From assembly GCA_949156565.1 (NCBI GenBank), contig CASCZI010000006.1, forward strand, positions 1 through 64,000: DNA of 64,000 nucleotides, read 5' to 3'. The stretch comes from an uncultured Alphaproteobacteria bacterium (lineage in GTDB: Bacteria > Pseudomonadota > Alphaproteobacteria > Rs-D84). Shown here one piece after another: positions 131-61,965 of this stretch; within the stretch, counting starts at the first letter, position 1, and each line of letters opens with the position of its first letter. Made by a program: the position numbers and the translations under genes. The notes beneath the pieces were generated by a model that worked only from the letters and a program-made list of their open reading frames with translations, did no database searches and was not told the DNA's origin.

Positions 131-579
131 ATGAACAGTTTTTTTTCGGGATATGGTTGGCGTAGTGCGAAATCGGGCCCCACAAAATTGAAAATTTTTG
201 TGGGTGATACCGACGGGGTGGTTATGCTATACCACTGTTCATGGTTCAGAGTGCAGCGTGCAGGTAAAGACCACTTCCCCCCTTCGGGGTTACTCCTCCA
301 CAGGCGGAGAACTTGTCTTTGTGCCACGCTGAGTTTAAGTTCCCCCGCCAGAATCCACCCACGGAAATTTAACAATTTCCGCGAGGCCCGGGGTGTTTAA
401 ATTTAAGGACAGAGAAAAGTTCCCCTCCGGTGGGGGGGGCGAAGCCCGGGGTGGTCTTTTTATAATTATTTAGGCCCAGATGTATGTACGGTTGGTGAAC
501 CCGTCCCCCCCCCCAATTTTTCCCCTTATCAAAAATCGGGCAAGCGGATATAACTCCTGGGGTTGGGCGTGATTTAACT
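131..579 (+). repeat. R1 dispersed repeat, copy C1
   Basis: This stretch shares long blocks with 43141-43622, with the reverse strand of 61611-61965 and, more weakly, with 51131-51366. Visible modules are a hairpin around 180-205 (CCACAAAA / TTTTGTGG arms), a block like GTTCAGAGTGCAG near 245, a block near 320-395 with the hairpin GGAAATT-taac-AATTTCC, and a run of ten C at 505-514. The copy ends at a promoter and an ATGCC start. The ORFs that can be drawn across it do not persist between copies and look spurious. Confidence 0.8.
526..554 (+). promoter_or_regulatory. Promoter at the end of R1 copy C1
   Basis: The -35 is TTATCA (526-531) and the -10 is TATAAC (549-554), with a 17-base spacer. 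It aligns with the promoters at 43569-43597 and, on the other strand, 61649-61677, which read TTGTAA-17-TATAAT. The C10 run ends 34 bases before the -10, the same distance as in the 43 kb copy. Confidence 0.6.
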
Positions 580-43140: not shown

Positions 43141-43622
43141 CTGCGCCGAGATCAGTGTTCAGAGCTCAGATAAAAGACCATCTCCCCGGCTACGCCGTTA
43201 CTCCCTCGAGGGAGGAGAAGTTGTCTTTGTGCCACGCTGAGTTTAAGTTCCCCCGCCAGAACCCACCCATGGAAATTTAACAATTTCCGCGGGGCCCGGG
43301 GTCGGGGTGACCGCCCATAAGTTTTCAGAGTGCAGTGTTCAGAGTTCGGGTAAAGACCACCTCCCCCCTTCGGGCTACTCCCTCTAGGGAGGAGAACTTG
43401 TCTTCGTGCCACGCCGTTGCAAAGTTCCCCTCCGATGGAGGGGTGGACGCGCAATCGGGCCCCGCAAAAATTGAAAGTTTTTGTGGGTGATACGGACGGG
43501 GTGGTCTTTTTTTTTAGATCCCATACGGGGGGGGACGGTGAACCCGTCCCCCCCCCCCAATTTTTCCCTTGTAAAAAATCTCTGTATCCGGTATAATTCC
43601 TGTGGTTAAACGTTATTTGACT
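43141..43622 (+). repeat. R1 dispersed repeat, copy C2 (internally duplicated)
   Basis: The copy contains two versions of the opening module (GATCAGTGTTCAGAG near 43150 and CAGTGTTCAGAG near 43332). Both are followed by a CTCCCT / AGGGAG hairpin and a GTGCCACGC block. It also has the hairpin GGAAATT-taac-AATTTCC near 43275, the CCGCAAAAA / TTTTTGTGG hairpin near 43465 and a G8 / C10 hairpin (43527-43557). It ends at a promoter and an ATGCC start. It separates a secreted-protein gene from the glycosyltransferase operon. The ORFs over it vary between copies and are not considered genes. Confidence 0.82.
43569..43597 (+). promoter_or_regulatory. Promoter at the end of R1 copy C2, reading into the glycosyltransferase operon
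   Basis: TTGTAA (43569-43574) and TATAAT (43592-43597) with a 17-base spacer are shared with the reverse-strand copy at 61649-61677 and nearly with 526-554. The ten-C run ends at 43557, 34 bases before the -10. The transcript would begin near 43604. Confidence 0.75.
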
Positions 43623-43666
43623 ATGCCTAATCCAAAGGGTGGTTTGGATTAGGCATATTTTTTGAT
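43622..43666 (+). terminator. Intrinsic terminator or attenuator in the leader
   Basis: ATGCCTAATCCAAA and its exact complement TTTGGATTAGGCAT enclose a six-base loop and are followed by ATTTTTTGATTTT. The hairpin begins about 20 bases after the likely transcript start and contains a ten-codon frame (MPNPKGGLD, stop). The left arm is repeated at the glycosyltransferase start (43709), so an alternative pairing with that sequence is possible. Confidence 0.7.
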
Positions 43667-43708
43667 TTTAAAATCCCTGATTTCTGCATTTGTTTACACC
43701 TTCTTACT

Positions 43709-44677
43709 ATGCCTAATCCAAACCACGGTTTAAAGGCATCGGGGGTGGTATCCCCCATGGGGCAAAATAACATCAAGATATCGGTTATTATACCGGTGTA
43801 CAATGTCGCGCAATATATTGCCCAGACATTAGATTGTATTTATGCCCAAACGATCGATCGCCAGGCATTAGAGATTATATGTGTTTTGGATGCATGCACC
43901 GACAACAGTGCCGATATTATTCGTCGGTGGGGGCGGGATAATAACGATATAACCATGCATATCATTATGAACAAAAAGAACAGGGGGCCGGCCATTTCCC
44001 GGAATCAAGGATTGCGCCATGCCCGGGGTGAATTTATTCACTTTATGGATTCAGATGATGTGATCAATACCGATTTTTACAAATCCATGTTTACGGCGGC
44101 AACCGGCGCATCGGCAGATTTGGCGGTATGTTGTTTTTATAATGAACGTCATCCCCACAGTAGTGTTATTTATCATTCAAATGTTGTTTATTCCAATCCC
44201 CAGGACAAGGTAGATCAAACATGGGTTGATACACATGGGTATATGGTGCGTTATCTTATTCGGCGTCAATTTTGGGATGCAAACAAGTTTAAGTTTCCAG
44301 AAAATATAAGATTTTGCGAGGATTGGTTACTGGCCAATGAAATGGTTTATGCGGCGCGACGTCTGGTGACGGTGGCGGATGCCCGGTACATATATAAATT
44401 CCGTAAAAATTCATTAATGATGCAATCCAAAACAAATACTGATTATCAGGTGATGGGGGCATCGGCGGGTCGTGCGGTGGATAAATTTTTGGTGGGCCAT
44501 CACTTGTTCCCGCATTTTATTGATGTACATACCACGGATTGGCGGTTGTTTGGGATGCGTTTGTTCAAGATTGAACGTGATTTGAATCACGTGTGTGTTC
44601 GATTATTCGGGCGGATAAAAATAATACGTCAATCCCAGCGGGTTAAATACAAACGTCGAGAGGTTTCCCATGATTAA
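43709..44677 (+). CDS. Family 2 glycosyltransferase
   Basis: The 322-residue GT-A enzyme begins its fold at KISVIIPVYNVAQYIAQTLD (about residue 23). It has LDACTDNSADII, the NRGPAISRNQGLRHARGEFIHFMDSDD motif with the metal-binding DSDD, and a late FCEDWLLANEM with the ED catalytic pair. It probably adds a sugar to a surface polysaccharide or LPS. The first 16 residues are encoded by the R1-derived ATGCCTAATCC block; a second Met at 43757 would give the usual length. The next gene overlaps by eight bases. Confidence 0.88.
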   Translation: MPNPNHGLKASGVVSPMGQNNIKISVIIPVYNVAQYIAQTLDCIYAQTIDRQALEIICVLDACTDNSADIIRRWGRDNNDITMHIIMNKKNRGPAISRNQGLRHARGEFIHFMDSDDVINTDFYKSMFTAATGASADLAVCCFYNERHPHSSVIYHSNVVYSNPQDKVDQTWVDTHGYMVRYLIRRQFWDANKFKFPENIRFCEDWLLANEMVYAARRLVTVADARYIYKFRKNSLMMQSKTNTDYQVMGASAGRAVDKFLVGHHLFPHFIDVHTTDWRLFGMRLFKIERDLNHVCVRLFGRIKIIRQSQRVKYKRREVSHD

Positions 44678-51130: not shown

Positions 51131-51366
51131 GGGATCAGTGTTCAAGTGGCAGAGTTTATCTGTATCTGCTTGTCTTTGCCGGGATCAGTGTTCAGAGTCC
51201 AGATAAAAGAGATTAAATTCGGGTCTAAGTTCCCCCGTCAGAACCCAGCCACGCGAACGCTTGTTCGCGCACGGGGGCGGCATCGGGGTGGCCGCCGGCG
51301 TCGTCGTGGCGCAGCGTTGGCGAAGACGGTCGGGCGGAAAATCGTTGACGGGGTTTTTACAAAAAT
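51131..51366 (+). repeat. R1 dispersed repeat, diverged copy C4
   Basis: The opening module GATCAGTGTTCA occurs twice (51136 and 51183); then GTTCCCCCGTCAGAACCCA matches the other copies. Where those have GGAAATT-taac-AATTTCC, this copy has GCGAAC-gctt-GTTCGC: both arms are changed but still pair. The downstream part is strongly diverged and ends near GGGGTTTTTAC. No promoter or ATGCC start is visible here. It sits between rpmA and dnaQ, both on their own terminators. Confidence 0.65.
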
Positions 51367-60692: not shown

Positions 60693-61538
60693 CTATTCCA
60701 CCCGATATGTTGTGCCGGCGACGGTGACGTTAATGCCGGTACCACTACCCGGTGTCAAGTTTCCGTAACAAACGCCGCCCGCGGTGCGTACAATCAATGC
60801 CGGCGTCGTATGACGTGTTGCCCATAATGGGGCCACCGTATTATTGGCGCGAATTTTTGTAATACCGGCGGCGCATAATGGTTGACATGCGTCAACCGAT
60901 ACAGATGTCTTGGTAAACGTTGACGTCCCATCGGGGCATTGTGTGCGTGTTATGGGGTCATTATCTGGTGAATAAAATCCAAATCCAACGGCCTGGCACT
61001 GAAAGCTGGCGGCCTGTGTATGGGAATCTGTCCAGTAATAGGCTTCTTGGGTTGTGGTGTTATAACCACAACCGTCACAATAATATCCCCCCGGACATGA
61101 TTTTACCCACACCATACACATATTTTTGCCCGCTATCGGGGCATAACCATTGGTATTATATGCACAAGAAAATCGAAAATCGCCATATCCCCATTCTTTG
61201 CGACATCCCGCAATGCCGGCATGAATGCCATTTTCAGACCAATACCAATAATGACTATGATGTGTTTCATCAAAGGCTTGGGCCGGACATTTTTTGCATT
61301 CTGTGGCGCCGGCATCAGAATATAGGGCCGTTGAATCCCCAACGGGTACACATATTTTTTGGGAATCATCACCGGGACAATAATACCCGGCCAAACATTT
61401 GGTACATTCCCCGTTGTTTAAATAATATCCCGGGTTGCACGTCGCCCCCATCACCGGCGCACAGAGCAGGGATCCCACCCCACACGCGGCCGCCGCGACG
61501 GCGATCGCGTCCCAAAACCCGACAGTTTTTTTAGGCAT
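60693..61538 (-). CDS. Cys-rich surface protein with GYYCPG-type repeats
   Basis: The 281-residue protein has a signal peptide (VGFWDAIAVAAAACGVGSLLCAPVMG-A). The mature part is Cys-rich with repeats such as CNPGYYLNNGECTKC, LAGYYCPGDDSQK, CPGGYYCDGCGYN and the end TPGSGTGINVTVAGTTYRV. These resemble tyrosine-kinase-ephrin-type or GCC2/GCC3 Cys repeats found in surface proteins of gut bacteria. Function unknown; exposure or adhesion is likely. The start is the second ATGCCTAA in the R1 leader, 85 bases after the first, as at the glycosyltransferase operon. Confidence 0.68.
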   Translation of the reverse strand: MPKKTVGFWDAIAVAAAACGVGSLLCAPVMGATCNPGYYLNNGECTKCLAGYYCPGDDSQKICVPVGDSTALYSDAGATECKKCPAQAFDETHHSHYWYWSENGIHAGIAGCRKEWGYGDFRFSCAYNTNGYAPIAGKNMCMVWVKSCPGGYYCDGCGYNTTTQEAYYWTDSHTQAASFQCQAVGFGFYSPDNDPITRTQCPDGTSTFTKTSVSVDACQPLCAAGITKIRANNTVAPLWATRHTTPALIVRTAGGVCYGNLTPGSGTGINVTVAGTTYRVE

Positions 61539-61610
61539 AGTTGGGGGGAAAATTTGTCGCAGAAATTGGGGATTTTTTGTTTCATGGGGACCGCTCAGAA
61601 AACTGTCCCT

Positions 61611-61965
61611 TTGGATTAGGCATAGTCAAATCACGCCCAACCCCAGTAATTATACCCGTTTGCGCGATTTTTTACAAGGGGAAAATTGGGAACAAGGAAT
61701 GGGTTCACCGCCCTCCGTATGGGATCTAAAAAAAAGCCCACCCCGTCGGTATCACCCCCAAAAATTTTTAATTTTTGCGGGGCCCGATTTCGCGCCCACC
61801 CCGACCCCGGGCCCCACGGAAATTGTTAAATTTCCGTGGGTGGGTTCTGGCGGGGGAACTTTGCAACGGCGTGGCACGGTGCAAGTTCTCCTCCCTAGAG
61901 GGAGTACCCCAAAGGGGGGAGGTGGTCTTTACCTGAACTCTGCACTGTGAACACTGATTGGGCTA
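61611..61965 (-). repeat. R1 dispersed repeat, copy C3 (inverted)
   Basis: Read on the minus strand the copy begins with CAGTGTTCACAGTGCAGAG, then CTCCCTCTAGGGAG, GTGCCACGCCG, the hairpin GGAAATTTAACAATTTCC and the CCGCAAAAATT block, a TATAAT promoter and a leader reaching an ATGCCTAATCC start at 61623. It lies between plsC and the Cys-rich gene, reading toward the latter. Confidence 0.82.
61649..61677 (-). promoter_or_regulatory. Promoter at the end of R1 copy C3
   Basis: On the minus strand TTGTAA (61672-61677) and TATAAT (61649-61654) are 17 bases apart, identical in both elements to the copy at 43569-43597. It reads toward the Cys-rich gene. Confidence 0.75.

Follow-up and report, generated by a model that had tools for sequence, protein, structure and literature searches.

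Introduction

The way in which small palindromic repeats spread when they lack a transposase is an old open question, especially for repeats that lie in frame within genes, and several described systems can be compared with the repeat analysed here (R1). In REPIN/RAYT (TnpA_REP), the non-autonomous repeat consists of two inverted palindromic units and single units flank the presumed mobilising nuclease gene in inverted orientation, an arrangement that is also found for R1 and its candidate partner. However, this partner is DUF559 (a Vsr/EDxHD-like PD-(D/E)XK nuclease) and not a Y1 HUH transposase, the R1 arms, with their two hairpins each, exceed the REP units in size, and inspection of the aligned arms by eye showed no GTAG/CGTC tag. 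Furthermore, inserts of the R1 family also occur in frame in genes and the nuclease genes are multi-copy in some genomes of the same genus (congeners). Since RAYT is missing from the source genome (G000), R1 is not a member of REPIN/RAYT, though similar in plan.

The Rickettsia palindromic elements (RPE), as summarised in PMC10969869, resemble R1 by description: they are palindromes of roughly 100-150 bp in a reduced-genome bacterium, located between genes as well as in frame in a housekeeping gene. Unlike RPE, R1 shares its queA site with a nuclease gene that has the same arms and is a candidate mobiliser, and in-frame R1 copies are a small minority with one clear case. IS MITEs and BIME or RIME mosaics are, like R1, small, non-coding units with inverted ends that form mosaic clusters. 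R1 differs from these in that its partner is neither a DDE_Tnp_1 nor a Y1 transposase (the families tested), and a Rfam scan of the window matched two tRNAs and no other family. Lastly, free-standing EDxHD/Vsr-like homing endonucleases of the I-Bth0305I type have a related nuclease (match to PDB 3r3p) and likewise occupy conserved gene positions with empty alleles in relatives. In contrast, no intron or intein was recognised for R1 and its kin; the insert keeps the reading frame of QueA, and the palindromic arms at its two edges are also found without the gene.

R1 Copies and Modules

The window, that is, the whole stretch of 64,000 nucleotides that was analysed, holds four copies of R1, for which module mapping gave the following coordinates:

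169-222, + strand: R1 copy 1, nested mini-hairpin m (GGGCCCC-hairpin-GGGTGATACCGA)
244-329, + strand: R1 copy 1, arm A (GTTCAGAG tract, AAAGACCACC, two hairpins, GAACTTG); the arm profile matches the reverse complement, E 7.6e-12
337-394, + strand: R1 copy 1, module B (nested GGAAATT/AATTTCC hairpin)
417-461, + strand: R1 copy 1, arm C (AAGTTCCCCTCC..GGGGTGGTCTTT); arm profile E 7e-8
43152-43244, + strand: R1 copy 2, arm A
43245-43309, + strand: R1 copy 2, module B
43333-43414, + strand: R1 copy 2, second arm A; arm profile E 1.3e-14
43422-43530, + strand: R1 copy 2, arm C, split by a nested m (43453-43506)
51131-51366, + strand: R1 copy 4, diverged, with an A-type 5' tract (51173-51210; 38 nt, 87% identical) and a B-like stretch from 51226
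61715-61791, - strand: R1 copy 3, nested m (61738-61791) and the end of arm C (61715-61745)
61796-61861, - strand: R1 copy 3, module B
61862-61952, - strand: R1 copy 3, arm A; arm profile E 1.2e-14

These coordinates bear out the four copies named in a preliminary description of this DNA. The modules of the ordered set that it had proposed are present too, but their order is not fixed, as copy 2 contains two arms A and copy 1 starts with m. The tract GTTCAGAG occurs four times in the window against 0.19 expected, a number reached in none of 100 shuffles. A profile of the R1 arms gave six matches in the window (E 1e-14 to 1e-4), with the window copies being among the sources of the profile.

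R1 is a mosaic, in which A and C are two related hairpin-bearing arms and B and m are nested hairpins. The smallest complete unit is A-spacer-C with a length of ~100-130 bp. Arm A runs from AAAGACCACC through a hairpin and a second hairpin (CTCCCT/AGGGAG or variants) to GAACTTG, and arm C from CAAGTTCCCC through two hairpins to GGGGTGGTCTTT. Structurally, arm C is the reverse complement of arm A, and the A-C unit therefore has matching ends (AAAGACCACC / GGTGGTCTTT) and folds into one branched hairpin. As single-stranded DNA the minimal unit reaches -37.8 kcal/mol, compared to -21.5 +- 2.9 kcal/mol in shuffles (z -5.56). Six aligned copies have 38 consensus pairs in common, and their ends are conserved. 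Covariation among these six copies is weak, with few compensatory changes and an unfavourable covariation term, so that the conserved pairing owes mainly to sequence conservation.

Judged by their sequences, B and m appear to be variants of a single, smaller nested hairpin (GGGCCCC-hairpin-GGGTGA) that is inserted into the arms in opposite orientations. The same kind of nested hairpin was read from the sequence of locus L132 in congener G046, where it lies in the loop of another arm's hairpin. A repeat search of the congeners gave matches in 15 of them, mostly to the nested mini-hairpin, which may be a separate mobile unit. Across congeners, a mini-hairpin GGGCCCC-[variable hairpin]-GGGTGAT was observed nested in arms in both orientations (L132 in G046, L114 in G006, and m and B of R1).

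Distribution of R1 in the Source Genome

The genome that contains the window has a size of 1.07 Mb in 10 contigs and is 95.8% complete. With copy 2 as blast query, 82 places were found. Re-mapping of the modules in the stretches around the blast matches yielded at least 42 R1 clusters, a lower bound since 40 of 74 candidates were scored. The modules were matched 48 (A), 28 (B), 38 (C), 28 (m) and 31 (D, see below) times. Several contigs start or stop within R1-type repeats, as is usual where an assembly is interrupted by true repeats.

DUF559 Genes and Their Arms

The DUF559 domain (PF04480) is encoded in 22 of the 59 genomes of the genus, each species being represented by one genome. In the congeners, short DUF559 open reading frames sit between inverted arms that are built like those of R1, and by eye each DUF559 protein subfamily seems to be paired with its own arm type. 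R1 itself has the arm form TTCCCC-hairpin-GGGGTGG-hairpin-GGGGTGGTC, which is homologous to the ends of DUF559 genes. The R1 blocks did not prove to be remnants of one protein-coding gene family, yet their arms terminate an element which in other genomes contains a DUF559 gene.

The association extends beyond the genus. Named genomes were scanned with a DUF559 alignment (A1), which gave 80 loci in many phyla. The nearest kin among them are alphaproteobacterial or proteobacterial bins labelled RUG, sheep or red deer, and from these labels the window genome probably belongs to an alphaproteobacterium of the ruminant gut. Flanking inverted repeats exceeded the 99th percentile of displaced controls in 39 of the 76 testable loci. 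The arm motif, a regular expression that misses the window copies owing to the nested m hairpin, was found 59 times in 48 kb of DUF559 flanks, compared to 10 occurrences in 280 kb away from the flanks at the same loci. An nhmmer profile built only from the R1 arms of G000 gave 87 matches near DUF559 genes (within 300 bp of them or inside their ends; 41 of the 80 loci), versus 11 elsewhere in 294 kb of those loci. Since the loci were picked by protein and not by repeat, this enrichment is not circular. The profile matches are also oriented relative to the gene: upstream, 37 lie in plus and 13 in minus orientation, and downstream, 10 in minus and 4 in plus. About half of the distant DUF559 loci have no detectable arm. 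In the open-access literature we found no paper on DUF559 with a title or abstract on repeats, though an earlier description elsewhere is possible, and a raw-sequence search of papers returned nothing relevant.

The DUF559 profile matches the solved proteins 3hrl (‘Endonuclease-Like Protein’, 1.4e-29) and 3r3p (‘Mobile intron protein’, 3.5e-4). The latter is I-Bth0305I, which belongs to the Vsr-related EDxHD family. Acidic and histidine residues are invariant in the alignment (E23, D51, E62, D64 and H68), which is compatible with an active nuclease. Congener G006 contains nine DUF559 matches, and three copies that were inspected share their terminal sequences but lie at unrelated sites, which favours recent mobility. 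At loci L117, L132 and L121, the element is flanked on either side by the 3' end of the host gene, in duplications of 54, about 62 and 45-55 bp, respectively, which at L117 and L132 include the stop codon. Similar long duplications flank the elements at L235 and L220, with an overall range of about 45-100 bp. Such long duplications would fit widely separated staggered nicks.

The queA Insertion Site

The site that R1 and DUF559 have in common lies in queA. In G000, the open frame of QueA (390 aa) continues through an A-C copy of R1, which is inserted in frame at residue 36 and contributes 44 aa. At the same position (aligned residues 32-36), a DUF559 gene is inserted in frame in G013, G016, G018, G065 and G069. 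At a second place, residue 263, DUF559 is in frame in G009, G046, G058 and G065, and 43 congeners have neither insert. Hence one queA position is empty in 43 species, is occupied by the palindrome alone in one, and in five contains a nuclease gene, in most cases with homologous palindromic arms.

The homology of the arms can be followed in the DNA of the inserts. The in-frame insert of L126/L136 reads CAAGTTCCCCTCC..GGGGTGGTCTTTT - DUF559 - TTAAAGACCACCCC..GGAGGGGAACTTGC, and the two flanking parts are arms C and A of R1. L124 has an R1-like A-spacer-C pair to the right of DUF559. The inserts at L112 and L113 have a different, GC-rich boundary, and R1-type arms are thus not part of every insert. 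L113 (G013) has a further small in-frame insert at QueA residue 72 (IPPQAQRGEGGLWACPTKPWRS), which may be another bare palindrome. The shared site suggests a little-studied mode of repeat spread in bacteria.

Origin of R1

We propose, with a probability of roughly 0.72, that R1 is a non-autonomous palindromic member of a DUF559 element family, that its arms A and C correspond to the right-end and left-end arms of the nuclease-carrying form, and that DUF559 mobilised it. The presumed autonomous form has the order C - nuclease - A with a short gene for the DUF559 nuclease, and R1 has the order A - short spacer - C, a head-to-head pair that can form a single long, branched hairpin. The folded arms would most likely be recognised by the nuclease, which would nick the DNA, after which repair or replication across the nicks could copy arm pairs or whole elements. 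By this nick-and-copy route, arm pairs would reach gene ends, terminator T-tracts and sometimes, in frame, genes such as queA. The pairs would outlast the nuclease gene, and G000 would have kept the arm pairs only, enlarged by the nested B and m hairpins. Since the order in R1 (A-C) is opposite to that of the nuclease-carrying form (C-ORF-A), R1 is not a simple internal deletion of the latter.

Besides the reversed order and the distant DUF559 loci with no detectable arm, two further observations weigh against this model. Firstly, no DUF559 gene was found in G000 at 95.8% completeness, so that the partner is absent and present-day mobility of R1 is unsupported. Secondly, several DUF559 elements have long duplications, whereas scanning for direct repeats of >=12 nt (target duplications) found none at the edges of R1 clusters that lack module D. 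DUF559 could also be a passenger that enters existing palindromes and not their mover.

The preliminary description had considered a MITE-like unit without visible transposase, and this is supported by the many dispersed copies, the symmetrical ends, the occupied and empty states of queA and the absence of RAYT and DDE_Tnp_1 genes from G000. As another reading, R1 could be the MITE of some conventional transposon (DDE or HUH/RAYT), with DUF559 genes simply landing beside such repeats. The symmetrical ends, small size and high copy number would suit an ordinary MITE or REPIN, as would the missing DUF559 partner. However, among the transposase families searched, DDE_Tnp_1 was not found in G000, and Y1_Tnp/RAYT (PF01797) is absent from G000 and present in one of the 59 congeners, compared to the 22 with DUF559. 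Moreover, across phyla the arms favour one orientation relative to DUF559, and in the in-frame insert they make up the coding ends. A conventional MITE is therefore unlikely.

If DUF559 is the mover, palindromic repeats would have a further route of spread in addition to RAYT and the transposases of classic MITEs, and RPE-like elements would have a candidate explanation. For the wider claim that DUF559 and its paired hairpin arms are an undescribed, phylum-crossing mobile system, we see an even chance. In such a system, a Vsr-type nuclease would move its own gene and nuclease-free arm pairs, between genes or in frame, with no transposase, recombinase, intron or intein, sometimes leaving long duplications of host DNA. 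DUF559 is a concrete, testable partner for a repeat family that lies near such genes in many phyla, and the family may account for part of the intergenic GC-hairpin ‘junk’ in many metagenome-assembled genomes.

Module D and Its Gene Family

Three R1 copies in the window adjoin a promoter module, D, which has the consensus -35 TTGTAA, 17 nt, -10 TATAAT. Its features in the window are:

512-584, + strand: module D beside R1 copy 1, with promoter TTATCA-17-TATAAC (526-554) and ATGCC start; outside R1 proper, with degraded sequence downstream
43556-43636, + strand: module D beside R1 copy 2, promoter TTGTAA-17-TATAAT at 43569-43597
43622-43735, + strand: D leader, containing TATGCCTAA three times (+ 43622, - 43649, + 43708) as well as a long inverted repeat (arm2/arm3)
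60693-61538, - strand: putative D-driven gene for a secreted Cys-rich protein starting MPKKTVGFWDAIAVAAA..GATCNPGYYLNNGECT
61610-61695, - strand: module D beside R1 copy 3, promoter 61649-61677 and first TATGCCTAA 61616-61624

The preliminary description had taken this 17-spaced promoter and the ATGCC start as the end of three R1 copies. The promoters are indeed there and adjoin these copies, but D can be separated from R1 and goes with the genes that follow it: 20 of 42 R1 clusters are without D and 9 of 31 D sites without R1. These numbers also count against the idea, raised in the same description, that R1 and D together are a mobile promoter cassette which switches on downstream genes. Such a cassette would account for R1 lying directly upstream at 22 of the 31 D sites, in one fixed orientation and with a similar junction, and for the consensus promoter elements of D. 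However, many genes downstream of D have a common start and a secreted Cys-rich N-terminus, as expected of gene-family duplication, and the D leader is complementary specifically to the start region of its own gene, which indicates that D evolved with that gene. We consider the cassette very unlikely. D is not part of R1 but forms the 5' region of about 30 genes of a dispersed family, and R1 probably came to lie upstream of these genes through co-duplication of gene, leader and R1.

Many of the genes behind D sites encode a secreted Cys-rich family (..ATCDPGYYLNNGxCTxC..CPG); a Pfam search with the member at 60693-61538 gave no match. Two glycosyltransferase genes were noted behind the D site at 43.6 kb. 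The D leader has three TATGCCTAA sites (+,-,+) with spacings of 27 and 58-59 nt, and the third site of the leader at 43622-43735 carries the start of the glycosyltransferase gene 43709-44677. Leaders, including those at 43622-43735 and 61531-61624 in the window, contain an open reading frame of 9 (MPNPKGQFF*, MPNLNHPLD*) or 30 codons. Arm 2 of the leader pairs better with the next start region at its own locus than with those at other loci. Over 24 loci of G000, the complementarity summed to 413.5 versus 281.7 +- 20.2, and none of 10,000 permutations, in which the kinship of the loci was ignored, exceeded 363. Real co-change is supported by the diverged loci, which have distinct arm types, each with a matching partner. 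From its sequence, the leader looks like a start-codon sequestration element or an attenuator. Three congeners have D-like leaders, but their small number and divergence make them uninformative here.

The spacer or loop of the leader is inverted at six loci (C1:170576, C5:20, C5:21869, C5:67382, C6:84681 and C10:24305). Site-specific inversion was considered as the source of this polymorphism and is not claimed, as the genome has serine and tyrosine recombinases but nothing links them to the TATGCCTAA sites. Some leader loops contain CCCGGATTTCCGGGATTTTTTT, which is terminator-like.

Position of R1 Relative to Genes

Many R1 copies lie just 3' of genes, and 10 of 39 A modules start directly after a terminator T-tract (4.5% expected per window). 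This position and the strong hairpins would suit a functional host element (a bidirectional terminator or an mRNA 3'-end stabiliser) that was amplified by recombination and is not mobile, but this is the least probable alternative, since the copies in question follow an existing terminator and would be redundant as terminators, one R1 lies in frame inside queA, where the comparison of occupied and empty sites speaks against it, and in many phyla a nuclease gene is enclosed by arms homologous to those of R1. At many 5' edges of R1, arm A is preceded by short, degenerate repeats that resemble GTTCAGAGTGCAGAGTTCAG, for example at 43150-43175 and 51173-51210, and GTTAGTGGTTAGTG-like repeats were observed at similar places in congeners.
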